Shown one piece after another: positions 1 through 47,450 of a stretch of DNA of 64,000 bases. The translations under genes were made by a program, and so were the position numbers. This DNA comes from a bacterium (GTDB lineage Bacteria > Vulcanimicrobiota > Vulcanimicrobiia > Vulcanimicrobiales > Vulcanimicrobiaceae), in the NCBI GenBank assembly GCA_021790935.1, contig JAJYFL010000005.1, forward strand, positions 1 to 64,000, given 5' to 3'. The notes beneath the pieces are model-generated. The model was not told the DNA's origin and made no database searches. It worked only from the letters and a program-made list of their open reading frames with translations. Numbering within the stretch: position 1 is the first letter of the stretch; each line of letters starts with the position of its first letter.

Positions 1-821
1 GCGCCGGCGTGATGGCGTATCCGCTCCAACTCCGCGAGCAGCGTTCGCAAGGCCAGCGCGCGAAGCGGGACTTGGATCCCGAGTGCGGCCTCCACCGCGT
101 TACAATAGCCCCAACCGTTGCCGAAGGCGCTGGTCCCGTTGCACCGTTCTACCAGCAGCAGAACGTCGTCCACGCTCCGGCCCTCGGCGAGTTTTTCGAT
201 TGCGCGATACTTGTAAAACAATCGCGGAACGGCGCGAACCACATCTTCGCCAACGGTTTCCAACAGAAAAAGTGCCGATTCCGCTCGCCCGGAGAAGACC
301 GGTCCCAGGGGCATAACGAAGGCGCCTTCCTCGTGGAGGACGCGGTGTGGCTTCCACTGCCGGTTCGTTTGGGCAACGCGTTCGGGCGACTGAGGCCGCA
401 TCAAACCGATTCCTTCAGCCCACTTGTCGTCGTGGAAGACGAAGTCACCCAATCGCGGGTGGTCCGTGAACGCGATCGAGAAAAGGTCTTCGATCTCGCG
501 CTCGTGCCGGTCGGCGCAGATGTAGACCGGCGTCAGCGAAGGCACCTCGCGCGCGGCGCGGTCGACGCATACGAGCAGATGCAACCACCCCGATCCGTCG
601 CCGGCATAGAAGCAATAGCGCAGATCGAGCGCGTCGTGCGTCTCCGAAGCGACGACGATTCCAAGTCTCCAGCCGTCTGCGTGCAGGCTCGCTGCAACCG
701 CACGCAGCAGATCGGCCGGGGGTCTGGCGAGCAGGATACCGGCCTGCGGTGAATCCGCAGGAGTAAGCGGCCATTCCCTCAGGGCCTCTCGAGCCTTGCC
801 GAATGAGTTCAACTGGCTCAT
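1..821 (-). CDS. Hyf/Ehr-like large subunit (NuoCD-type), 3' end outside window
   Basis: The first 273 residues are visible; the gene runs off the left edge. Residues about 1-140 resemble the NuoC-like domain (HEREIEDLF, then HPRLGDFVFHDDKW). From about 165 a NuoD/HycE-like domain begins (YKYRAIEKLAEGR, then ELERIRHHAGA). In NiFe hydrogenases such as HycE the motif after this is CGIC, two ligands of the NiFe site. Here residues 225-234 read ERCNGTSAFG, so CGIC is replaced by NGTS and only a shifted Cys227 remains. The start ATG at 819-821 overlaps the stop of the upstream HyfF-like gene (ATGA), so the two are translationally coupled. This matches Ehr (energy-converting hydrogenase-related) proteins rather than a working hydrogenase. 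The C-terminal ligand motif cannot be checked here. Confidence 0.85.
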   Translation of the reverse strand, partial: MSQLNSFGKAREALREWPLTPADSPQAGILLARPPADLLRAVAASLHADGWRLGIVVASETHDALDLRYCFYAGDGSGWLHLLVCVDRAAREVPSLTPVYICADRHEREIEDLFSIAFTDHPRLGDFVFHDDKWAEGIGLMRPQSPERVAQTNRQWKPHRVLHEEGAFVMPLGPVFSGRAESALFLLETVGEDVVRAVPRLFYKYRAIEKLAEGRSVDDVLLLVERCNGTSAFGNGWGYCNAVEAALGIQVPLRALALRTLLAELERIRHHAG

Positions 822-2269
822 CCTCCGAGCGCCGCAGCGGAGCGCATCAACAGCTCGATCAACGAGAGCGGCACCCAAACGCCCAGAGCGATGACCGGTA
901 AAGCGGCGATTCCCAGCGCGATCGCGCAAGGGACCGGGAGCGGGGGCCGTGCACGCCCGCTCTTGGCCGGCCGGCCGAAAATCATCTTCGTTACCTGGAA
1001 GAGCATGCCAAAGAAACCGGCCACGACGAACGCTGCCAGCAATCCGGTGACGAGGTAGTGATGCGACACGATTCCCGCGCGAAAGATTGCAAGTTCGCTC
1101 AGGAAAACGGCAAACGGCGGAGCGCCGGAGATCGCAAGTGCGCCCACGAGGAGCGCGGCCGCCGTAACCTTCGATCTTCCCAGCAAGCCGGTAACGTCCG
1201 CGATCGAACGCGTTCCGGTAACCAGCAGCGCGCTGCCCGCGGCATAAAAGCAGAACGACTTCGTGACCGCGTGCGTCATGATCTGCCAGACGGCCGACAC
1301 ATCGCCGAGCGGCGTCGCGAAGCTTGCCGCAACCAAGATTATCCCCATGTGTTCGACGGTGGAGAATGCGAAAAGCCGCTTGAAGTCGTGCGTCTGCATG
1401 ATCAGCAAGACGGCGGCGCCGACGGAGACTAGGCCGAGAACCGCAAACCACGCTTGCACGTGCACCGCCGGTACGGCTAAGAACACCCCTCGGAGACGGA
1501 GCAGCACGTAGAGCACCACGGTCGTTTCGACGCCGGAGAGCAAGGCGCAGACCGGGGCGGGCGCTTGGCTGTGCGCGTCCGGCAGCCACGTATGCAGCGG
1601 AACCAGTCCAATCTTCGCACCGTAGCCGACCAGGATCAGGGCGAACGCCACTTTGACGAGCGGAAGGGGCATAGAAGCCGCACCCGCCCGCAAGCCCGCC
1701 CACGTGAAGTCGATCGACCCGGTGAAATGGAGAGCCCAGAACAGTACCAGCACGCCAAGCACCGCAACCGTCGCGCCGAGGAGCGTCAGCACCATGTACT
1801 TCCAGGCCGCCTCGAGCGCTTCGCGAGTCCCGGCGAAACTGACGAGCAGCACCGAAAGCAGCGTCGTCAGTTCTACGGCGATCCATACCAATCCGAACTC
1901 CACGATGAACGGAATGCTCAGCATCGAGAAGGCGAACAAATTAAAGTTGGCATAATACAGCCGCGTGCGCTGGGACCCGTACTCCGGCCCAATGTAACCT
2001 GCGGAGAACACCGCCGCGGTCGCGGAGACGAATGTGATAAGCAAGAGCAGGAGCACGGAGAGCGCATCCACCTGCACCCAATTAGAAACCAGGACGAGCG
2101 TCCCGGCCGAGCGTACCGCCGCCATCACGACTACGCTCAGTCCGAACGCGAGCGCCGAGCACGCAATCGTCAGATATGCTGCGATCCGCTCGCTTCGCGG
2201 CAACGCCAGGGCCAGCGCGCCGAAGAGCGGTAGCGCGGGAACGAGCCAAGCGACGGCGTGCGCGTTCAA
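818..2269 (-). CDS. Hyf/Ehr-like membrane subunit HyfF (NuoN/ND2-type antiporter-like)
   Basis: A 483-residue polytopic membrane protein of the NuoL/M/N (Mrp antiporter-like) family. The TM5-type glutamate is present in WIAVELTTLLSV. The TM7-type lysine is present in GYGAKIGLVPLHTWLPDAHS, the hallmark of proton-translocating subunits, and FAFSTVEHMGII is also conserved. The length suits HyfF/HycC-type subunits without the long C-terminal lateral helix. Both ends overlap neighbouring genes by 4 bases (ATGA), so it sits in a tight operon between the HyfE- and HyfG-like genes. It should form part of the proton- or cation-pumping arm in the cytoplasmic membrane. Confidence 0.88.
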   Translation of the reverse strand: MNAHAVAWLVPALPLFGALALALPRSERIAAYLTIACSALAFGLSVVVMAAVRSAGTLVLVSNWVQVDALSVLLLLLITFVSATAAVFSAGYIGPEYGSQRTRLYYANFNLFAFSMLSIPFIVEFGLVWIAVELTTLLSVLLVSFAGTREALEAAWKYMVLTLLGATVAVLGVLVLFWALHFTGSIDFTWAGLRAGAASMPLPLVKVAFALILVGYGAKIGLVPLHTWLPDAHSQAPAPVCALLSGVETTVVLYVLLRLRGVFLAVPAVHVQAWFAVLGLVSVGAAVLLIMQTHDFKRLFAFSTVEHMGIILVAASFATPLGDVSAVWQIMTHAVTKSFCFYAAGSALLVTGTRSIADVTGLLGRSKVTAAALLVGALAISGAPPFAVFLSELAIFRAGIVSHHYLVTGLLAAFVVAGFFGMLFQVTKMIFGRPAKSGRARPPLPVPCAIALGIAALPVIALGVWVPLSLIELLMRSAAALGG

Positions 2270-2931
2270 GCAAGCTCCCGGAGGGCTGCTAGGCTCCCGG
2301 CCTCCGTCGAACCCGTTTCGCGGTACACGGCACGAGCCAGTATGGCAACGATGAACGCCAGCAGCGGCACGTCAAAGGCGATCGCAAGTTCGGCGATCAG
2401 GGGGAAATTTGGCGCGATGGCGATCCCGACCAAGAACGCGCCATTCTCCATGCCGAGTATGGCGAGGATTTGCGGAACGGCTTCGCGCCGGACGGCAAGC
2501 TGCAGCAGCGCGATCAGCAAGCCGGCTATGCCGAGCGAGACGTTGCCCGGGGAGAGGCTGTGGGCTGCCGCGTTGAGCGGCATGCCGACGGCATAGCCGA
2601 CCAGCAACAGCGCGAACGCGCTCAGCAGGGCTGCGGGCACGCCGACCGATTGCGACAGCTCCCTCCGCGCGTACACCTGAGCGGGAACCAAGCTGCGAAG
2701 AATCCATGGAATCAGCACGGCTTTGCTGGCGATCGTGACGCAGCCGAGTGCGAAGAGGTGCCACGACCATGGAGCGCCGCCAAGTAAGAAAGCGGACGCG
2801 GAGAGCAGCAGCGATTGCATCACGAAGATCTGCAGGCAGGCGCCGATCTGCCGCACGACGACCATGGCGATCGCCGTGAGGATGAAGAGACCAAGAACCA
2901 ACGCATTCAGGTGATAAAGCCATGCGGTCAT
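2266..2931 (-). CDS. Hyf/Ehr-like membrane subunit HyfE (NuoK-related)
   Basis: A 221-residue hydrophobic protein with about six to seven membrane spans. It resembles HyfE, whose C-terminal part is related to NuoK. The segment ILAILGMENGAFLVGIAI carries the glutamate in a helix typical of the NuoK-like part. It overlaps both neighbours by 4 bases (ATGA), confirming the order HyfC-HyfE-HyfF-HyfG. The paralogue at 40415-41086 is almost the same length (223 residues) and has the matching segment FLTIENGLFFGTVTL. It probably belongs to the proton path next to the HyfF-like subunit. Confidence 0.8.
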   Translation of the reverse strand: MTAWLYHLNALVLGLFILTAIAMVVVRQIGACLQIFVMQSLLLSASAFLLGGAPWSWHLFALGCVTIASKAVLIPWILRSLVPAQVYARRELSQSVGVPAALLSAFALLLVGYAVGMPLNAAAHSLSPGNVSLGIAGLLIALLQLAVRREAVPQILAILGMENGAFLVGIAIAPNFPLIAELAIAFDVPLLAFIVAILARAVYRETGSTEAGSLAALRELA

Positions 2932-3878
2932 AGGCCGAGCAGCTCCGTCACCATCGCCGTGACCGCCACGGCGAATGCGGCGCCCACGAAGTCCGTAATC
3001 CTGAATAACCGCAATTTTGCAAACGACGACTCAACGACGACGATCAGCAGCACGAGGGCAAGGACCTTTAAGAACACCAGTGCCGTCGCGAGCAGCATCG
3101 CCGGGATCGTGCCGGTCGACGCCAAGCCCCACGGCGTGGTCAGCACGTTGAGAAAGATGATCGCCAAGACGGCGAATTTCATGTAGCCGCCCCATTTCAA
3201 GAGGGCGAGTGCCGGACCGGAGAACTCAAGCGCTTTGGATTCGTCTATCATGGCAAGTTCGAAGTGACCGCTCGGGTTGTCTACGGGGATCCGGCCGGTT
3301 TCCGCGAGTAGCACCATGAAAAACGCGATCAGCAGCAGGACGTGGGACGCGGTGAAGAAGTTCGAAAGCGGATGAACCCAATGCTGTTGTACGATGTACG
3401 GAATCGTCGAGTCCGCGATGAACGAAACGGTGAATAAGACGATGATGATAACGGGCTCGACCAGAAACCCTACCATGCGGGTGCGGCTGGCGCCCATCGG
3501 GCCGTAGGGATTTCCGCCGTCGATCGCCGCAAGCGTAAAGAAAAATCCAGACGCCGCAAGGATGAATCCGGCCGCCAGCATATCGCCGACGAAGGCAAAA
3601 AATAGCGGGAAGTCGGTCAAGACCGGTATCAGCAACGTAACGACGAGCGGAATCACGAAGACGACGTATGGCGTGAACCGGAATATCCACGTGCTCGATT
3701 CCGGCGTCACGGCGTCCTTGGCGAAAAGCTTGCGGAGATCGCGGTACGGTTGAAAGATGCCCGGCCCACGCTTGGATGCAACCAGCTCTTTGCACTTCTG
3801 CAAAATGCCGGCGAAGAGTGGCGAAAGCCCGAGGATGAACGCCAGCTGCCAGAGATTCAGCGCCGCAGCTTCGGCCAT
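2928..3878 (-). CDS. Hyf/Ehr-like membrane subunit HyfC (NuoH-type)
   Basis: A 316-residue NuoH/HyfC-family membrane subunit that anchors the peripheral arm. Family signatures are SKRGPGIFQPYRDLRKLF near residue 35 and the loop ETGRIPVDNPSGHFELAMID. That loop follows the HycD/HyfC pattern rather than the NuoH pattern. It is the first gene of the minus-strand operon (HyfC-HyfE-HyfF-HyfG) and has about 430 bases of upstream space holding inverted repeats. The acidic loop thought to link quinone or redox chemistry to pumping is intact here, unlike the paralogue at 39459-40415. Confidence 0.88.
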   Translation of the reverse strand: MAEAAALNLWQLAFILGLSPLFAGILQKCKELVASKRGPGIFQPYRDLRKLFAKDAVTPESSTWIFRFTPYVVFVIPLVVTLLIPVLTDFPLFFAFVGDMLAAGFILAASGFFFTLAAIDGGNPYGPMGASRTRMVGFLVEPVIIIVLFTVSFIADSTIPYIVQQHWVHPLSNFFTASHVLLLIAFFMVLLAETGRIPVDNPSGHFELAMIDESKALEFSGPALALLKWGGYMKFAVLAIIFLNVLTTPWGLASTGTIPAMLLATALVFLKVLALVLLIVVVESSFAKLRLFRITDFVGAAFAVAVTAMVTELLGL

Positions 3879-4308: not shown

Positions 4309-4737
4309 ATGTTTTCACACATCCTGGTCGCCTGGGACGGCTCGGCAAGCGCTGGTCGCGCGTTCGACTACGCCGTAGAGATTGCGCGCCGGTTTCAGGC
4401 ACGCGTGCAACTTGTATCCGTAGCCCGCATAGGCGAACATTCCGAAACCGATGCGGAGCGCCAATCCTCCTTGGACGAAGCAAGGCGCTTTTACGAACAG
4501 CGCAGCGCTCCACTTATAGAGAGTGCGCGCCGCCAATCTATCACCGTCGAAATGTTGATCGTCGAAGGCGCCCACCCCGCCGAGGCTATTATCGACACGG
4601 CTCATAGGGTCGGAGCCGATCTCGTCCTCGTCGGCCGGCGAGGTCTCTCGGGCGTTACTCGTTTTCTCATCGGAAGCATCTCCGACCGGGTCGCGCGTTA
4701 TGCGCCGTGCCCCGTATTGATCATCAATGATCCGTGA
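4309..4737 (+). CDS. uspA: universal stress protein, UspA family
   Basis: A 142-residue single-domain Usp protein. It starts with the typical beta strand FSHILVAWDGSASA. Near the C terminus is the ATP-binding pattern G-2x-G-9x-G-S (GRRGLSGVTRFLIGSIS), followed by a final strand CPVLIIN. This places it in the ATP-binding, UspFG-like group. Such proteins are cytoplasmic and help cells survive starvation or oxidative stress; the target is unknown. GGTGA lies upstream of the ATG as a weak ribosome site. It is divergent from the HyfC-like operon and shares an upstream region with a repeated inverted repeat, so co-regulation is possible. Confidence 0.9.
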   Translation: MFSHILVAWDGSASAGRAFDYAVEIARRFQARVQLVSVARIGEHSETDAERQSSLDEARRFYEQRSAPLIESARRQSITVEMLIVEGAHPAEAIIDTAHRVGADLVLVGRRGLSGVTRFLIGSISDRVARYAPCPVLIINDP

Positions 4738-39458: not shown

Positions 39459-40415
39459 GTGACGCTAGCGCCTATTTTTGTACAAGTGGCGCAGGTGGCA
39501 TCGCTGCTGTTTTTGTCGCCGCTTCTCGCCGGCAGCATCGCGCGCATCGAAGCGATCGTTCAGGGGCGGCGCGGGCCCTCGGTCTTTCAGCCGTATCGCG
39601 ACATCCTCAAATTTTTTCGCAAGCAGTCGCTCCTGCCGGGACCCTCCTCCTGGATCTTTCGCACGGCTCCCTACGTTGCGTGCGGCGCGTACGCAACCGT
39701 GGCTACGCTTATCCCGGTGCTCACGACCTACCCCTTGCCGGGAGCGACGTACGGCGATATTCTCGGCGGCGCGTTCGTCCTCGCGCTGGCGGGGTTCGTA
39801 ACGGCGCTCGCCGCCTTGGACGCGGGCTCCCAGTATACCGGAATCGGCAGCAGCCGCGCGGTGATGGTCGGCATCCTCGTGGAGCCGACCCTCATCTTCG
39901 TCTTCTTCTCGGTGGCATTTCTCACGGGCACCGATCTGCCTTACGCCATGAACGCGGCCCTGCGCCACTCGGCGGCAAACGTACTGCGCCCCGCCCACCT
40001 TCTGGCGACCGCAGCCTTCTTCATGATGATGCTCGTCGATACCGGGCGGATTCCGATCGAGAGCTCGTCGGCAACGACCGAATTCGGGATGATCGACGAC
40101 GCGCGTTTCTTCGAGCACTCGGGCCCCGCCGTCGCGCTCTTCAGGTGGGCCGGCTCGATGAAGCAGTTCCTGCTCTACACGATCTTCATCAACGTCTTGT
40201 TGTTGCCGCTCGGGCTGTCGTCCAACGGATCGCTGCCGTCGGTACTCTTTGCCGTCGTAACGCTCTTTGCCAAGATGCTGGCGGTCGGGCTGGTCGTCGC
40301 GACGATCGAAACGACCTTCGCGAAGCTCCGGCTCTACAAGATACCGGATTTCATCGCAACGGGTCTGCTCGTCGCGATTCTCGCGGTATTCGCCTACGTC
40401 GTGGGGGTCGGATAG
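39459..40415 (+). CDS. Hyf/Ehr-like membrane subunit HyfC (NuoH-type), second cluster
   Basis: A 318-residue NuoH/HyfC homologue, paralogue of 2928-3878. RRGPSVFQPYRDILKFF is conserved. The acidic loop reads DTGRIPIESSSATTEFGMID, whereas the paralogue has ETGRIPVDNPSGHFELAMID; several invariant positions (DNP, H, L) are changed here. The GTG start at 39459 has GGAG 8 bases upstream. It is the first gene of a six-gene operon whose members touch or overlap each other. It should join the peripheral arm to the membrane arm. Confidence 0.87.
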   Translation: MTLAPIFVQVAQVASLLFLSPLLAGSIARIEAIVQGRRGPSVFQPYRDILKFFRKQSLLPGPSSWIFRTAPYVACGAYATVATLIPVLTTYPLPGATYGDILGGAFVLALAGFVTALAALDAGSQYTGIGSSRAVMVGILVEPTLIFVFFSVAFLTGTDLPYAMNAALRHSAANVLRPAHLLATAAFFMMMLVDTGRIPIESSSATTEFGMIDDARFFEHSGPAVALFRWAGSMKQFLLYTIFINVLLLPLGLSSNGSLPSVLFAVVTLFAKMLAVGLVVATIETTFAKLRLYKIPDFIATGLLVAILAVFAYVVGVG

Positions 40416-41086
40416 TGATCGCACATCAGCTCACCGTCCCGGAGGCCCTGGCGGGGACCGTCGCCGTACTGCTCATGCTCGTGCAACTCGCCTTGTTCCG
40501 CTCGGTCGTGATCTCGGAACTCATCCGCCTGTACGCCGTACAGTCGTTCCTGGTGGCCGCCATCGGCTTCGGCGTCGGGGTTACCGAAGGCAGCTGGGAT
40601 TTGATCGCCTTGGCGCTGCTGACGATCCTGTTCAAAGTAGTTGCGCTTCCAATCTACATGCAGTCGCTGGTGCGAACGATATCCACGCGCGTCGAATTAC
40701 CGGCGCGAATCAACATCACGCTCTCGCTGCTCGTGGCCGCCGCGCTGATCGGCTTCGCGATTCTCACGGCAATGCAGCTCCCGCTCCATCACGGCGCCTT
40801 CTTGCCGCAGGCCGACTTGGCAACGACCTTGGCCATCGTCTTCGTCGGCTTCCTTCTCGCCATTCTTCGGCCAAACGCCCTCGCCCAAGTCATCGCCTTT
40901 CTCACGATTGAGAACGGCCTTTTCTTCGGCACCGTGACGCTTGCGCCCGGGCTGCCGTTCGTCATCGGCGTGCTCCTGCTGATCGACGTGCTCGTAGCGG
41001 TCGTCGTCTTTGCCGTATTGGTGCGGATCCTGGTCGGGCAAGAGGCCTCCGCATCTACCACGTTCTTCGAGAGGCTGCGCGGATGA
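40415..41086 (+). CDS. Hyf/Ehr-like membrane subunit HyfE, second cluster
   Basis: A 223-residue membrane protein, paralogue of 2266-2931, with about six to seven helices. A helix containing FLTIENGLFFGTVTL has the NuoK-type glutamate. The GTG start at 40415 shares one base with the preceding TAG (TAGTG), and the end overlaps the HyfF-like gene by 4 bases. Predicted proton-path subunit. Confidence 0.82.
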   Translation: MIAHQLTVPEALAGTVAVLLMLVQLALFRSVVISELIRLYAVQSFLVAAIGFGVGVTEGSWDLIALALLTILFKVVALPIYMQSLVRTISTRVELPARINITLSLLVAAALIGFAILTAMQLPLHHGAFLPQADLATTLAIVFVGFLLAILRPNALAQVIAFLTIENGLFFGTVTLAPGLPFVIGVLLLIDVLVAVVVFAVLVRILVGQEASASTTFFERLRG

Positions 41087-42531
41087 ACGGGCTCGCCGTC
41101 GCCATCGCCGCCGTGCCCGCTGCGCTTGCGGTCGCAGTGCTCTTCGTACCTTCGCGCGTGGGGCGCATCGCGACCGCGATCGGCGGCCTCGTGACGGCGG
41201 CGTGCATCGCGGCGCTCGCTCTCCAAACAGCGGACGGCGCGCCCGGCGCTCCGGACGCCCTCTCCGCACTCTTCCTGCTGCCCGTCGCGATCGTCTACGG
41301 GACCGTCGGGCTCTACACCACTTGGTACGTGCGCGTGGAGAGCATCGGCAGCGGCGGCGACGAGATCTACAGGCGCGAGTTTCTCGCGCTGACCAATGCG
41401 TTCGCCGCCGCGGAAGCGATCGTTCCGCTGGTGACCAACATGGCGGGCGTATGGGTTGCGCTGGAAGTTACCACCATCCTCGCGGCGCTGCTGGTGCGGC
41501 TGCACGGCACCGCGGCCGCGCTGGAAGCGGCCTGGAAGTACATCCTGATCGCATCGTGCGGCCTCGCGATCGGACTCGTGGGCGTCATCGTGCTCTACGC
41601 CTCGGGCACCGGGGTTCTCGGCCAGCACTACGAGCCCGTATGGAGCGCCTATATGGCGGTTGCCTCACGGTTGAACCCCGACGGCGTGCGCCTGGCCTTC
41701 GTGCTCGCTCTAGTTGGTTTCGGTACGAAGATGGGACTCGCGCCGATGCACACGTGGCTTCCCGACGCTCACGGCGCGGGTCCTACGCCGACGAGCGCGA
41801 TGCTCTCCGGCGTGCTGCTATCGGATGCGCTCTACGTCATCGTTCGCTTTGCGTCGATCGCCAACGCCGCAACCGGCACGACGATGACGCATCGCCTATT
41901 CTTCGTCGTCGGCCTGCTTTCGCTGTTCGTCGGAGCGTTTTTCTTGCTGCGTCAGCGCGATATAAAGCGAATGCTCGCGTATTCGAGCATCGAGCACATG
42001 GGCATCGTCGCGTGCGGCTTGGCCTTCGGCGCGCGCATTGCGGTGACCGGGGCCTTCCTCCATGCGATAAACCACGCAGCGACCAAGTCGCTCGCGTTCT
42101 TGAGCGCCGGCCGTCTCTCCCATCGTTTCAACACGCGCGAGATCGCGGGCATACGAGGCGCGGTAGCGGCGCTTCCGATATCGGGAACCATGTTCGCGCT
42201 CGCCGGCCTCGCGCTGGCAGGTATGCCGCCCTTCGGCACGTTTCGAAGCGAACTCATGATCCTCGCCGGCGGTTTCGGCGGGCGCGAGTGGTGGATCGCT
42301 ATCGTGGCGCTCCTCCTGCTCGCAATCGCGTTCGCGGGAATCGTGCGATGGGTCACGAGCGTCTGCGGCGGCGAGCCGCCCGCGGAGGTTCGGCGCGGCG
42401 AGCGCGACCCCGGCGCGATCGCCGCGATGCTGCTCGGCTTCGCCGTCGTGCTCGGCCTCGGGCTCTTCGTACCGCCGCCGCTCGGGCGCCTGCTCGAAGG
42501 CGCGTTTCGCATCCTGGAAGGCCGCTCGTGA
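41083..42531 (+). CDS. Hyf/Ehr-like membrane subunit HyfF (NuoN-type), second cluster
   Basis: A 482-residue NuoL/M/N-family subunit, paralogue of 818-2269. The TM5-type Glu is in VWVALEVTTILAALLV, the TM7-type Lys in GFGTKMGLAPMHTWLPDAHG, and MLAYSSIEHMGIV is conserved. So the residues needed for proton or cation translocation are intact. It overlaps both neighbours by 4 bases. Confidence 0.88.
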   Translation: MNGLAVAIAAVPAALAVAVLFVPSRVGRIATAIGGLVTAACIAALALQTADGAPGAPDALSALFLLPVAIVYGTVGLYTTWYVRVESIGSGGDEIYRREFLALTNAFAAAEAIVPLVTNMAGVWVALEVTTILAALLVRLHGTAAALEAAWKYILIASCGLAIGLVGVIVLYASGTGVLGQHYEPVWSAYMAVASRLNPDGVRLAFVLALVGFGTKMGLAPMHTWLPDAHGAGPTPTSAMLSGVLLSDALYVIVRFASIANAATGTTMTHRLFFVVGLLSLFVGAFFLLRQRDIKRMLAYSSIEHMGIVACGLAFGARIAVTGAFLHAINHAATKSLAFLSAGRLSHRFNTREIAGIRGAVAALPISGTMFALAGLALAGMPPFGTFRSELMILAGGFGGREWWIAIVALLLLAIAFAGIVRWVTSVCGGEPPAEVRRGERDPGAIAAMLLGFAVVLGLGLFVPPPLGRLLEGAFRILEGRS

Positions 42532-43922
42532 GCCCCACAGAGATGCGCGGTGCCCGCGAGGTCGCGCAGCGGGTTCTATCGCGGGTGCGCGACGGCGCAC
42601 GCCTCGCATGGATCTTCGGCGATCGCGTAGGAGACCGCACGGTGCTGCGCTACGTCGTCAGCGATGAAGGGGGGCTGGAAGAACATCCCGGCAACGTGCT
42701 CGGGCCCGTTCCATCGCTCGCGGCGGAGCTCCCGGCCGCGCTTTGGCACGAGTGCGAGGCGCGCGACCGCTTCGGCATACTATTCGAAGATCTCCCCGAA
42801 TCCCGCCCGCTCGTCGACGTTCGACCGGCCGAGGAACTTCGACGCGCGGAGTCGCCGGAAGTCTCCACGGTACTCTACGGGCCGATCCGATCGGGCATCG
42901 TCGAGTCGGCGCGCTGGATCGTGGAGACCGCGGGCGAGGATTTCATCAGCGTCCATCCTTCGATGTTCTTCAAACGCCGCGAGCTCGAGCATCGCTTCAC
43001 CGGCGTGCCGCTCGATCTCGCGGCGCACGTCGCCGAGCATGCGAGCGGAGCGACGGCGTCCAGCCATGCGGCCGCATTCTCTAAGGCGGCCGAAGCGGCG
43101 CTGCGGCTGGAGGTACCCGAGCGCGCCCGCGCTACGCGGGCGGTTCTCGTGGAGTTCGAACGCATCCACCAACACCTCGACTCGCTGGCGAAACTCGCCG
43201 ACGACGGCTCGCTTTCGGTTGGATCCTCGCAGACGTTTGCAGCCAAGGAACGTATCCACCGCCTATTAGCCGAGGCAACCGGAAACCGCTTCGCGCGCGG
43301 AGTCATCACGGTCGGAGGGACGCGCTTCGACGCGATGTCGCGCCTTGCGGACGTCTGCGGCGCGCAGCTCGACCGGCTCGAAGCGGAGGTGCTCGCCGTG
43401 CTCGAAGCGCTCTTCTCCACCCAGTCGCTGCTCGACCGCCTTATCGGCACCGGAAGGCTCGCGCGCGAAGTCGTCATCGCTTACGGCGCCGTGGGGCCCG
43501 TCGCGCGCGGGAGCGGCGTATCGTGCGACGCCCGGCTACGCGACGGTTATCTGTATACGCCGATGGCGGGCGAGGAATCTCTCGAGAGCCAGGGCGACGC
43601 GGTCTCGCGAGCGCTGGTGCGCCGTGCGGAGATCGTGCGGTCGTTCCGATCGATTCGCAACGCTCTCGACGGCGCTTTCGCCGGCGAGCATCTCGCACCC
43701 GCGCGCATCGAGGATGGATGCGGCATCGCGCGCGTCGAGTCTCCGCAAGGCGAACTCCTCTACTTCGTGCGGTTCGACGGCGGCATCGCCCGAGTGGCTC
43801 TACGGTCGGCATCGTACGCCAATTGGCCGCTCTTCGTGCCATCGCTGCCCGGTAATATCTTTACGGATTTCTCCTTCATCGAGCATTCATTCGGGTTGTC
43901 GCAAGCGGAGGTCGACCGTTGA
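42528..43922 (+). CDS. Hyf/Ehr-like large subunit (NuoCD-type) without NiFe-site cysteines, second cluster
   Basis: A 464-residue NuoC-NuoD fusion as in HycE/HyfG. The NuoC part ends with ECEARDRFGILFEDLPESRP. The NuoD part has KRRELEHRFTGV and PERARATRAVLVEFERIHQH. Where HycE has the first NiFe motif CGIC, this protein reads AEHASGATASSH (169-180), with no cysteine. The second motif (DPCYSCTDR in HycE, after NWP and GN/D segments) is replaced by HSFGLSQAEVDR at the very C terminus. So all four NiFe ligands are missing. In complex I NuoD also lacks them and binds quinone there; whether this protein does is unknown. Starts at GTG 42528 overlapping the previous stop. Confidence 0.88.
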   Translation: MSPTEMRGAREVAQRVLSRVRDGARLAWIFGDRVGDRTVLRYVVSDEGGLEEHPGNVLGPVPSLAAELPAALWHECEARDRFGILFEDLPESRPLVDVRPAEELRRAESPEVSTVLYGPIRSGIVESARWIVETAGEDFISVHPSMFFKRRELEHRFTGVPLDLAAHVAEHASGATASSHAAAFSKAAEAALRLEVPERARATRAVLVEFERIHQHLDSLAKLADDGSLSVGSSQTFAAKERIHRLLAEATGNRFARGVITVGGTRFDAMSRLADVCGAQLDRLEAEVLAVLEALFSTQSLLDRLIGTGRLAREVVIAYGAVGPVARGSGVSCDARLRDGYLYTPMAGEESLESQGDAVSRALVRRAEIVRSFRSIRNALDGAFAGEHLAPARIEDGCGIARVESPQGELLYFVRFDGGIARVALRSASYANWPLFVPSLPGNIFTDFSFIEHSFGLSQAEVDR

Positions 43923-44635
43923 GCAATTGGATCCTATACGGCCTGCGCCGCGGCATCCTCACGACGCGCTACCCGCAGCGCTCCGGGGCGATGCCCGCCG
44001 GCTACCGCGGTGCCGTCACCGCGTTGAACGCACCGCTCGAGGAGCAGCGCGCGGGGATAGCTGCGTGCCTATCGGGCGCCCTGCAGGAAGGTTCGCCGGC
44101 GGCTCGGGTCGATGCGCTGCGCTGCTACCAATGCGGCGAATGCGTGCGGCGCGCGCCTACTGCGTTTGCGATCTCCCCTGCCTTCGAGGTCGCACGGCTA
44201 CGGCGGCGCGCGGCGTCGTTTGGGCGCTCGGTGCACGTGCGGCACGTCGACGCCGGGAGCGACGGTTCCGAGGAGCAAGAACTGCAGGCAATCTTCAATC
44301 CGTTCTACGATGCGAACCGCTTGGGGATCTTCTTGACGGCGACGCCGCGTCATGCCGACGTCTTGATCGTAACGGGGGTGGTGACCCATCCGATGGTGGA
44401 TCCGCTACGCCGCGCGTACGATGCGATGCCGCACCCGAAGAGCGTGATCGCGCTCGGGACCTCGGCCTGCTCCGGCGGCATCTTCGCCGATAGCCCGGAC
44501 GTTGCGGGGCCGGTCGATACAATCGTGCCCGTGGACGTCTATATTCCCGGCATGCCGCCCACGCCGCTATCGATCCTTCACGGTCTCGCGGTCGCGCTCG
44601 GCAGAGCGGTGCCGGCCGGCGGGGCGATACCGTGA
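43919..44635 (+). CDS. ferredoxin-like/NuoB-like fusion (HyfH-HyfI) with lost iron-sulfur ligands, second cluster
   Basis: A 238-residue fusion. Residues 1-100 resemble HyfH/NuoI: YGLRRGILTTRYP at the start, then only one partial cluster motif, RCYQCGECVRRAP (Cys 69, 72, 75; the fourth Cys is Ala79). The other 4Fe-4S site is gone. Residues 100-230 are the NuoB/HycG-like small subunit: PRHADVLIVTGVVTHPM and IVPVDVYIPGMPPTPLSIL. Against HycG the proximal-cluster cysteines become A112, D115, E118, S182 (GTSACSGG for GACGNSGG) and M212 (PGMPP for PGCPP). So no standard Fe-S cluster can be bound. TTG start at 43919 with GGAG 8 bases upstream. Confidence 0.88.
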   Translation: MSNWILYGLRRGILTTRYPQRSGAMPAGYRGAVTALNAPLEEQRAGIAACLSGALQEGSPAARVDALRCYQCGECVRRAPTAFAISPAFEVARLRRRAASFGRSVHVRHVDAGSDGSEEQELQAIFNPFYDANRLGIFLTATPRHADVLIVTGVVTHPMVDPLRRAYDAMPHPKSVIALGTSACSGGIFADSPDVAGPVDTIVPVDVYIPGMPPTPLSILHGLAVALGRAVPAGGAIP

Positions 44636-46644
44636 CCGCGCTGCAACTCGTCCTGTCGGCGCTGGGCGCGGCGCTGCTGGGGTGCGCGCTCTCGATCGCC
44701 GTGCCGGGCCGCTACGGGCGTACGCTGGGCTTTTTGTCGTTGCTCGCAGCCGGGGCGCTCGGATGTGCGGCGGCGGTCGCGGGCCTGCGCGCCCCCGTAC
44801 CGGAGGTTGCCGGTTACCCGGCGATCCACGTGCTGCTGCGCATCGACCCGATCTCGGCGTTCTTCGTCGGCATCATCGCAGCGACGGCGCTGCTGGCCGG
44901 CATCTACGGATTGGGCTCGCGCGGCGCGGACGAGCGGCGCACCGGCCGGACCGCCGCATCCGCAGCCTGCGCGATCGCGCTGGCGTCGCTGCTCGTATGC
45001 GTCGCCGACGACGTGCTGCTCTTTCTCTTCGCCTGGGAGCTGATCGCGCTCGGCTTCTATTGGACGATCGTCTACGCCGGCACGCACGAAGAGGCGGAGC
45101 GCTCCGGGTACGTCACGCTCGTCGTAACGCACGTGGCGGGTGCCTGCTTGATCGCCGCGCTGCTCATCCTCGCGCATCGCGGTGGCGGATACTCGCTGGA
45201 GAGCGCGCTTGCCGGCGCCGCCACGCTCTCGGCTCCCGCACGCGGCGTCATCTTCGTGCTGCTGTTGATCGGCTTCGGCGCGAAGTTCGGCATGCTTCCC
45301 ATGCAAGTATGGCTTCCGTACGGTTATTCGGCGGCGCCGGCCTCCGTTGCGGCGCTGATGGCCGGTGGAGCGCTCAACGCCGGCTTCTACGGCCTGGCGC
45401 GTTTTGTCATCGGACTGCCGGGCGGCGTCCCCATCTGGTGGGCGATCGTGGCCCTTGCGCTCGGCGCGCTCGGCGCCTTCTTCGGTATCGCGTGGGCGAC
45501 GGCTCAACGCGACGTGCGGCGGCTGGCGGCCTACTCCAGCGTCGAAAACGGCGGCATCATCCTGGCGGCGTTCGGCGTCGCACTCGCGGGGCGCGCCATC
45601 CACCTCGATCTGCTCGTCGGTCTCGGCCTGGCGGCCGCCTTCATGCAGATCGCCGCTCACGCACTTGCTAAGACGACGCTCTTCCTCGGTTGCAGCACGA
45701 TCGCCGACCGCTGCGGCACGCTTTCGTTCGAATCGCTCGGCGGCTTGGCGAAATCGATGCCCGTGACGACGGCAGCGACGCTCGTCGCGGCGCTCTCGCT
45801 CGCCGCCCTGCCGCCGATGGCGGGCTTCGCAGGCGAGTGGCTGATTCTCGAGTCGCTCATGCAGGCGTTTCGTACCGGCAGCGTCGCTCTCGAACTTTCG
45901 TTCGCGCTGTGCGGTGCCACCATCGGCGTGGCCGCCGGCATCGCCGTGGTCGCATTCGTCAAACTGGTGGGCATCGGTCTTCTCGGCAGCGCGCGATCTC
46001 CGCAAGCGCGTGCCGCAACCGAAACGCCGTCCGCGTGGAAACGCTTGGCGCTCGTACTGGGCGCGCTCGCGGTCCTCTCGGCGGGCATCTTCGCTCGCTC
46101 CCTCTTGACGCTGGCGGCACCCGCCATCGACGGCCTCTCGCACGCGAACGCGGTTGCGGGAATAGCCGGAACGGCACCCCTGCTCCAGCCGGCGTTCCCC
46201 GGCTTCTCCTCGGCGTCTCCGCCCGCGCTGGCGCTGACAATCGGCGGCTTCGCGTTGCTCTTCTGGCTGCTCGCGCGTGCGATTCCGCGGCCGCGCGCTC
46301 GCAGCGCCGAGGTATGGACCTCGGGCGAATCGTACCGCCCATGGACGCAATACACGGGTACCGGATTTGCGAACCCCTCACGCGTTATTTTGGACGCCGG
46401 CATGCGCACGACGCGCGAGATCGCGGTCGAAGGCCCCCCCCACGGCGAGCGAAGCACCCGCTATTCGAGCGCGATTCGTCCGTTCTTCGATCTGCGGTTC
46501 TACCGGCGCGTCGCCTCGGGCTTTCTGCGAGTCGCCGATATCGTTCGGAAGACGCAATCGGGTGCCATCGCCGCGTACCTCTCGTATATTCTGGTCTTCA
46601 CCATTCTTCTGCTTCTCTTGTTCCCGTCGATTCGCAAATGGTAG
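44632..46644 (+). CDS. Hyf/Ehr-like membrane subunit HyfB (NuoL-type), second cluster
   Basis: A 670-residue NuoL/HyfB-type antiporter-like subunit. TM5-type Glu in LFLFAWELIALGFYW; TM7-type Lys in GFGAKFGMLPMQVWLPYGYS, where the usual PxAH is PYGY; AAYSSVENGGIILAAFG is conserved. The C-terminal part (after a loop with TSGESYRPWTQYTGTG) ends in a helix, as in HyfB. It completes the operon HyfC-E-F-G-H/I-B. GTG start overlaps the previous stop. Confidence 0.88.
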   Translation: MTALQLVLSALGAALLGCALSIAVPGRYGRTLGFLSLLAAGALGCAAAVAGLRAPVPEVAGYPAIHVLLRIDPISAFFVGIIAATALLAGIYGLGSRGADERRTGRTAASAACAIALASLLVCVADDVLLFLFAWELIALGFYWTIVYAGTHEEAERSGYVTLVVTHVAGACLIAALLILAHRGGGYSLESALAGAATLSAPARGVIFVLLLIGFGAKFGMLPMQVWLPYGYSAAPASVAALMAGGALNAGFYGLARFVIGLPGGVPIWWAIVALALGALGAFFGIAWATAQRDVRRLAAYSSVENGGIILAAFGVALAGRAIHLDLLVGLGLAAAFMQIAAHALAKTTLFLGCSTIADRCGTLSFESLGGLAKSMPVTTAATLVAALSLAALPPMAGFAGEWLILESLMQAFRTGSVALELSFALCGATIGVAAGIAVVAFVKLVGIGLLGSARSPQARAATETPSAWKRLALVLGALAVLSAGIFARSLLTLAAPAIDGLSHANAVAGIAGTAPLLQPAFPGFSSASPPALALTIGGFALLFWLLARAIPRPRARSAEVWTSGESYRPWTQYTGTGFANPSRVILDAGMRTTREIAVEGPPHGERSTRYSSAIRPFFDLRFYRRVASGFLRVADIVRKTQSGAIAAYLSYILVFTILLLLLFPSIRKW

Positions 46645-46928: not shown

Positions 46929-47450
46929 ATGCTCATCGAGTTTCGCGGCAGAGTGCCGAAGGTCGACCCAACCGCGTTCGTCGCGCCGACGGCCGTGCTG
47001 ATCGGCGACGTAGAGGTCGGCCCGGAGTCGAGCATCTGGTTCGGGGCCGTGGTCCGGGGCGACAACGGCCCGATTCGCATCGGCGCGCGAACGTCGGTTC
47101 AGGACAACTGCGTGCTGCACGTCAGCCGAAACTGCACGACGGTCCTGGGCGACGACGTGACGGTCGGGCACTGCGCGGTGATGGAAGACTGCACGATCGA
47201 AAACTACGCGTTGATCGGCAGCAACGCGGTGATACTCAACGGCGCGATCGTCGGCGCCTCCTCGCTGGTCGCGGCCGGAAGCGTCGTCGGCGAAAACGCG
47301 CGCATCCCCGAGCGCGTCGTCGTTGCCGGCGCGCCGGCAACGGTCAAGAAGCCGCTGGGAGGCGAGGCCGCGAAGTGGGTCGCCACCGGCGCCGACGAGT
47401 ACCGCGAACTCACTCGCAGCTACCGCGCCGAGAAGATCGGCGGAACGTAA
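46929..47450 (+). CDS. gamma-carbonic anhydrase family protein (YrdA-like)
   Basis: A 173-residue left-handed beta-helix protein: DPTAFVAPTAVLIGDVEVGP and SSIWFGAVVRGDNGPIRIG match YrdA/CaiE-type proteins. Of the three histidines that bind metal in gamma-CAs, two are present (His64 in VLHV and His81 in VGHC), but the third, normally five residues after the second, is Glu86 (MEDC instead of LHGC). So metal binding or activity may differ. Trimer is expected. It is on the plus strand, convergent with dnaB (6-base gap). Confidence 0.85.
   Translation: MLIEFRGRVPKVDPTAFVAPTAVLIGDVEVGPESSIWFGAVVRGDNGPIRIGARTSVQDNCVLHVSRNCTTVLGDDVTVGHCAVMEDCTIENYALIGSNAVILNGAIVGASSLVAAGSVVGENARIPERVVVAGAPATVKKPLGGEAAKWVATGADEYRELTRSYRAEKIGGT

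Follow-up and report, generated by a model that had tools for sequence, protein, structure and literature searches.

An Ehr-type complex I homologue lacking proximal-cluster ligands in Eremiobacterota: a possible ion transporter

The central unsolved problem of complex I is how electron transfer can drive ion pumping at a distance. What the membrane arm does when it receives no redox input could be studied in a natural complex that retains its membrane pump and coupling subunits after losing the last cluster and the catalytic site. The locus described here lies in the window, the whole 64,000-nucleotide stretch of DNA analysed, which is part of contig C20 of an Eremiobacterota genome of 2.65 Mb that is 98.8% complete. 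The six genes of the cluster, in the order hyfC-E-F-G-HI-B, overlap end to start (Table 1). The fifth, hyfHI, begins at a TTG codon that overlaps the hyfG stop and encodes 238 amino acids in an open frame, with a ferredoxin part (about residues 1-97, including a weak Fer4_13 match at 64-96) followed by a small-subunit part (about residues 98-238, with Oxidored_q6 at 120-224). The first-pass annotation of this DNA had called it a HyfH-HyfI fusion with an intact frame, and the frame and domains bear this out.

Table 1. Positions of the Ehr-type genes and cluster-ligand sites in the window.
Feature	Position	Strand	Basis or remark
hyfC (NuoH-like membrane subunit)	39459..40415	+	Pfam NADHdh, E 2.5e-31
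hyfE (membrane subunit, hydrogenase-4 component E-like)	40412..41086	+	NCBIfam hydrogenase 4 membrane subunit, E 6.7e-16, under that model's curated cut-off
hyfF (antiporter-like subunit)	41083..42531	+	Pfam Proton_antipo_M, E 7.9e-52
hyfG (fused NuoC/NuoD-like large subunit without [NiFe] ligands)	42528..43922	+	Pfam Complex1_49kDa, E 5.1e-31
hyfHI (HyfH ferredoxin part fused to HyfI/NuoB-like small subunit)	43919..44635	+	Pfam; HycG, MbhJ and HycF alignments; AlphaFold2
hyfB (antiporter-like subunit)	44632..46644	+	Pfam Proton_antipo_M, E 1.6e-46
Former proximal-cluster ligand positions in HyfHI	44261..44554: D115 44261-44263; E118 44270-44272; S182 44462-44464; M212 44552-44554	+	HycG/MbhJ alignment; orthologues
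Complete ligand set for one [4Fe-4S] cluster in HyfHI	44066..44143: C50 44066-44068; C69/C72/C75 44123-44143	+	HycF alignment; invariant in 35 fused proteins
Paralogous type B Ehr cluster	3..3878: hyfC 2928-3878; hyfE 2266-2931; hyfF 818-2269; 5' part of hyfG ~3-821	-	Rest on contig C11

The Ehr complexes, the rhizobial Hyq (hyqRBCEFGI) among them, have the same six-subunit core, a large subunit without the [NiFe] CxxC pairs and antiporter-like membrane subunits (PMC6349859, PMC10284858, PMC3357923). The window's cluster likewise combines homologues of NuoD/HyfG, NuoB/HyfI and NuoH/HyfC with antiporter-like subunits. Its HyfG matches Complex1_49kDa, HycE and MbhL; the L1 motif reads EHASGAT where hydrogenases have RxCGxC, the L2 motif reads EHSFGLSQAEVDR where hydrogenases have DPCxxCxxR, and both CxxC pairs of the [NiFe] site are missing in all orthologues. 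In comparison with the genome's own NuoD (L008), the position that we take to be that of the complex I quinone-site tyrosine is Gly in the HyfG family, and the presumed histidine position is H, R, K or Y. Since both the [NiFe] CxxC pairs and the quinone-site tyrosine are missing, neither hydrogenase activity nor standard quinone reduction would be expected. Ehr complexes devoid of [NiFe] ligands have been described from many phyla, and no function has been established for them (PMC6349859, PMC10284858, PMC10432482, PMC4378227).

What sets the window's cluster apart from the Ehr described is that the ligands of the proximal cluster, N2, are lost besides those of the [NiFe] site. HycG (7z0s_G, E 3.9e-32) and MbhJ (6cfw_J, E 5.4e-34) both align to HyfHI without gaps, and their four ligand cysteines fall on D115, E118, S182 and M212. 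Five replaced ligands had been proposed, A112 being the fifth; that residue aligns to an extra HycG cysteine that is absent from MbhJ and lies outside the N2 set of HyqI (Cys55, Cys58, Cys112 and Cys152; PMC3357923), so that four ligands were lost, not five. The motifs PRHADVLIVTG and VPVDVYIPG, said to be kept, are both present. No alignment restores the full ligand set, whether in the 13 orthologues or in the related Actinobacteriota. In all HyqI orthologues described the four N2 cysteines are present (PMC3357923), as they are in the Rhizobium pRL11 protein, whereas the window's family has lost them and has HyfH fused to HyfI as well. In the literature searched, no Ehr or complex I-like complex was reported to lack the N2 ligands, which is weak evidence given the incomplete coverage of Ehr and subscription literature.

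Among the 13 orthologues D115 is invariant, position 118 is E in nine and C in four, position 182 is S, T or A, and position 212 is M, T, A or S; the loss at 118 is thus not uniform. Entropy is 1.42 bits at 182 and 1.88 bits at 212, compared with a mean of 0.68 bits for the small-subunit part, and G113, S114, D115, S117, Q120 and E121 are invariant, giving the motif GSD.S..QE. On this pattern, constraint was released at 182 and 212, kept in changed form at 115 and left unchanged at the ferredoxin cluster. A new metal site built from the four replaced residues finds no support in the window's clade, where 182 and 212 vary; carboxylates recur at these positions in other lineages. C184 is still present in most of the window-type, N2-less proteins, which we call type A.

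The ferredoxin part had been described as a three-cysteine remnant of two 4Fe-4S sites, a description that is ruled out by the HycF alignment and by conservation. C50, C69, C72 and C75 align with the four HycF cysteines that bind one [4Fe-4S] cluster, match the corresponding four of the full two-cluster HyfH of locus L066, and are invariant in 35/35 fused proteins compared. C50 sits in CLSGA, where CPTGA is usual. Over the 13 orthologues these cysteines have zero entropy, against a mean of 1.42 bits for the ferredoxin part, and only the other [4Fe-4S] site (C1-C3 with C8) is lost. In NuoI, C4 together with C5-C7 presumably binds N6b, and by this analogy the retained site would be the one next to N2. 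Because one complete [4Fe-4S] ligand set is invariant, HyfHI may yet bind a single redox centre and use it.

Formate hydrogenlyase and hydrogenase-4 (HycBCDEFG, Hyf) resemble both halves of the fusion, the HyfI part being 45-47% identical to HycG over the fold and the HyfH part matching HycF. They differ from the window's cluster, which has neither [NiFe] nor proximal ligands, one rather than two ferredoxin cluster sites and no formate dehydrogenase gene; the large-subunit CxxC motifs and small-subunit proximal [4Fe-4S] ligands of group 4 [NiFe] hydrogenases (Hyc/Hyf/Mbh) are both lacking. With respiratory complex I (NuoB/C/D/H/I/L/M) the cluster is homologous in subunits and fold, but it is without the NADH module, the N2 ligands and the quinone-site tyrosine. 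The function of such clusters can be misjudged from annotations like 'hydrogenase-4', 'formate hydrogenlyase' or 'NuoB'. The Mrp cation/proton antiporter shares antiporter-like subunits with charged ion-path residues, and in this respect a redox-free mode is possible. Whereas Mrp is without NuoB and NuoD, the window's cluster retains homologues of NuoB, NuoD, NuoH and NuoI; a plain Mrp mode is not proved, because the cluster contains no MrpE, MrpF or MrpG gene.

Among 149 genomes of the phylum that were searched, the type A set was recovered at E below 1e-78, with the next paralogues at 4.5e-47 and weaker. The set comprises 13 genomes, the window's and 12 others, whose HyfHI proteins are 58-96% identical to that of the window, and the gene order C-E-F-G-HI-B is the same in the fetched regions wherever the contig is long enough. 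The 13 orthologues share 72 invariant HyfHI residues and contain no internal stop. Estimated by the Nei-Gojobori method from close pairs only, more distant pairs being near dS saturation and left out, dN/dS of HyfHI is 0.20 against L039 and 0.28 against L040; the values are 0.15 and 0.26 for HyfG, 0.12 and 0.12 for HyfB and 0.05 for HyfE, compared with 0.03 for DnaB and 0.08 for Lon. Selection on HyfHI is purifying. The first-pass annotation had suggested selection for a non-redox role, of which the selection holds; the non-redox role is not established, one [4Fe-4S] ligand set being invariant. It had also held the fold to be conserved, and the AlphaFold2 model of HyfHI agrees (35 rows; mean pLDDT 89.2, pTM 0.87; used in place of a poor 13-row model with pLDDT 67.6). 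Its best structural match is HycG, at residues 96-235 (Z 20.8, rmsd 1.7 over 140 residues), and the fold is predicted to be intact without the cluster ligands.

The same state was sought more widely. A profile scan of 84,980 species genomes returned ten loci, namely seven orthologues already found, two from Actinobacteria and one from Bacteroidetes, and follow-up searches in about 400 genomes of each of the latter two phyla added more members. Relatives with such substitutions thus include the 12 further Eremiobacterota genomes, the named ones being MAGs such as isolate Mitchell_Peninsula_4, and Actinobacteriota sister clusters. A clear member, on the Mycobacterium branderi plasmid pJCM12687, carries N/D/D/A in place of the four N2 ligands and retains all four ferredoxin cysteines. 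This locus (L089; NZ_AP022607.1, 515277-522716) is a full N2-less cluster, its genes being annotated as hydrogenase, ferredoxin and NADH-quinone oxidoreductase.

In a tree of HyfC, HyfF and HyfG, from which the small subunit was excluded, one clade of 20 (SH-aLRT 100) unites Eremiobacterota type A with the Actinobacteriota set and with three Actinobacteriota that have C/C/P/S. Three further groups, L086/L133/L134, L135 and L073, fall apart from this main Cys-less clade, L135 and L073 on long branches that make their exact placement unsure. By parsimony the tree needs four changes, with the N2 ligands lost at least four times, and a single origin is rejected, with a p-AU of 7e-66 for one clade of all losers. 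Carboxylates are frequent at the four positions in other losses, with DCDD, TCDD, DCDN, DEDS and NDDA. The unfused HyfI of L086, L133 and L134, from Bacteroidota and Actinobacteriota, have D or T, then C, D and D, with the motifs GDDA and PGDPP, and would constitute a second, independent N2-less family with conserved carboxylates. In three Actinobacteriota sister clusters (L137, L138 and L143) hyfH and hyfI are separate genes, and HyfI keeps cysteines only at 115 and 118, has lost those at 182 and 212 and has extra ones at 180 and 184. Their state looks like an intermediate step towards loss, and the extra cysteines could possibly belong to a different cluster or metal site. Some Actinobacteriota HyfHI (L105, L109 and also L136) are without the last N2 cysteine only (PGNPP).

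The membrane arm was compared with that of 26 Cys-intact Ehr sets. Glutamate in TM5 is a kind of residue involved in complex I proton pumping. HyfF E128, K216, H331, K335 and E390 are conserved, as are HyfB E136, K218, H343, K347, E402 and K444, the last being R in Actinobacteriota. Lysine in TM7, lysine or histidine in TM8 and lysine or glutamate in TM12 are kinds of residue named for complex I proton pumping (PMC7613608). The ion-path residues are intact in both antiporter-like subunits. The arm as a whole is not entirely unchanged, because the glutamate at HyfE E186, which Cys-intact relatives conserve, is replaced by G in the window's subclade; E167 and K75 are kept.

Further changes concern the coupling region. 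Compared with the H and D of Cys-intact Ehr, HyfC of the main Cys-less clade has T at H206 (A in one row) and E at D201; E194 is D in most rows, and R294, near the C-terminus, is K. The HyfC loop with the changes at 194, 201 and 206 should face the soluble arm. In HyfB of the same clade H339 is Q and N342 is A in most rows. The independent N2 losers retain the usual HyfC and HyfB residues, except for K in place of R294 in L135. Since the changes mark the main Cys-less clade and are mostly absent in the independent losers, they suggest that the coupling region was re-tuned there rather than subject to plain decay.

Taken together, the normal route from the ferredoxin domain through the proximal cluster to the active site is broken at the proximal cluster, and the [NiFe] site is absent as well. 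Because the catalytic site and N2 are lost, yet selection maintains the complex with its pumping residues unchanged, the complex probably moves ions across the membrane by a mode that differs from ordinary electron-driven catalysis. Our preferred reading, which we hold with about even confidence, is that this is an Ehr-kind complex that has lost redox turnover by the normal route and works as an ion transporter, gated perhaps by the cluster that is left. The membrane arm (HyfB, HyfC, HyfE and HyfF) would be a proton or cation transporter, whose ion specificity cannot be told from sequence. The soluble arm (HyfG and HyfHI) would have turned into a structural plug or regulatory gate, and its one retained cluster may act as a redox sensor that sets the conformation via the altered HyfC loop.

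For formate hydrogenlyase, electron transfer of about 100 per second at 17 Å has been estimated (PMC9474812). Slow exchange over about 17-20 Å from the remaining cluster would fit sensing better than turnover, and a slow enzyme would still be compatible with it. The first-pass annotation had judged standard electron transfer seemingly impossible; it was right about the broken route and the absent [NiFe] site, and 'impossible' is too strong, since slow exchange over such a distance is physically possible. The conserved [4Fe-4S] ligand set moreover argues, against the transporter reading, for some redox function. The broader proposition, that a complete complex I homologue has become a transporter of ions and no longer carries out catalytic redox turnover, with one Fe-S cluster as gating sensor and with N2 lost several times in different phyla, is put forward tentatively.

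The complex could instead still be a redox enzyme, which takes up electrons at the ferredoxin cluster and hands them to a cofactor or substrate in the HyfG/HyfHI cavity, with D115 and the GSD.S..QE motif replacing N2, for example by way of a different metal or an organic cofactor. This would account for the invariance of the four ferredoxin cysteines and of the six motif residues, and for the carboxylates at the same places in the other losses. However, 182 and 212 are freely variable in the window's clade, so that the old four positions form no conserved metal site there; both the [NiFe] pairs and the quinone tyrosine of complex I are missing, and no oxidoreductase partner gene recurs beside the cluster in the Eremiobacterota loci examined. 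We consider such an enzyme rather unlikely.

That the soluble arm is kept only for assembly or stability of the membrane arm, with no gating and a purely structural ferredoxin cluster, seems to us quite improbable. A fold kept while catalytic positions vary is consistent with such a scaffold, but the HyfG segments GNIFTDFSFIEHSFG and VAEHxSGATA are very highly conserved, seemingly beyond what a scaffold needs.

The same genome offers a further candidate role, since it carries a Cys-intact Ehr paralogue, type B, at the start of the window. The remainder of type B hyfG, together with hyfHI and hyfB, lies on contig C11 (L007, 9228-10820), the end of which overlaps the window start by at least 60 bases, and the two contigs abut there. 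All four proximal-cluster cysteines are kept in type B HyfHI. Contig C11 also carries a separate Nuo cluster, and a third, group 4-like cluster, on contig C19 (L009), has both CxxC pairs in its large subunit. Type A might then be a non-catalytic paralogue that co-assembles with the type B complex or regulates it, as a decoy or alternative soluble arm. The proximity of the two types, which are about 36 kb apart here, adjacent in G048 (L043) and separated by about 29 kb in G084, and their joint presence in 4/13 type A genomes, would suit this idea; against it, the other nine, including the single-contig genome G118, have no type B match, type A is equipped with all its own membrane subunits, and the overlap exceeds chance only slightly (hypergeometric p 0.05, based on an approximate genome count). 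We regard the idea as distinctly improbable. For the transporter reading, the Cys-intact paralogue provides a built-in control.

A relic, decaying cluster or assembly error, for which the lost cysteine ligands and the seemingly unconstrained variation at 182 and 212 might speak, is very improbable and refuted as far as sequence allows by open frames throughout, dN/dS of 0.05-0.28, 72 invariant HyfHI residues and the same state in 12 other genomes, one of them a single contig.

Just downstream of hyfB (46929-47450, + strand) lies a gamma-carbonic anhydrase-like gene, whose product seems to have Glu where the third metal His would be expected (VGHCAVMEDC). A carbonic anhydrase link, in the form of a CO2-hydration pump, was rejected: among the regions searched, this neighbour was present in the window and in L040, which belong to the same genus, and in no other. 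In Eremiobacterota, two MutS_V-domain ATPases that have no other recognised MutS domains often flank Ehr clusters of both types, together with a dynamin-like GTPase, a NUDIX protein and an unannotated protein of about 276 amino acids (L042-L047, L054, L058, L060, L061 and L007). From the neighbourhood, a link of the Ehr clusters with membrane or energy stress is possible. A universal stress protein gene is found near type A hyfB in eight loci (L041, L042, L043, L044, L045, L047, L049 and L050), and another, at 4309-4737 on the + strand of the window, adjoins type B hyfC.
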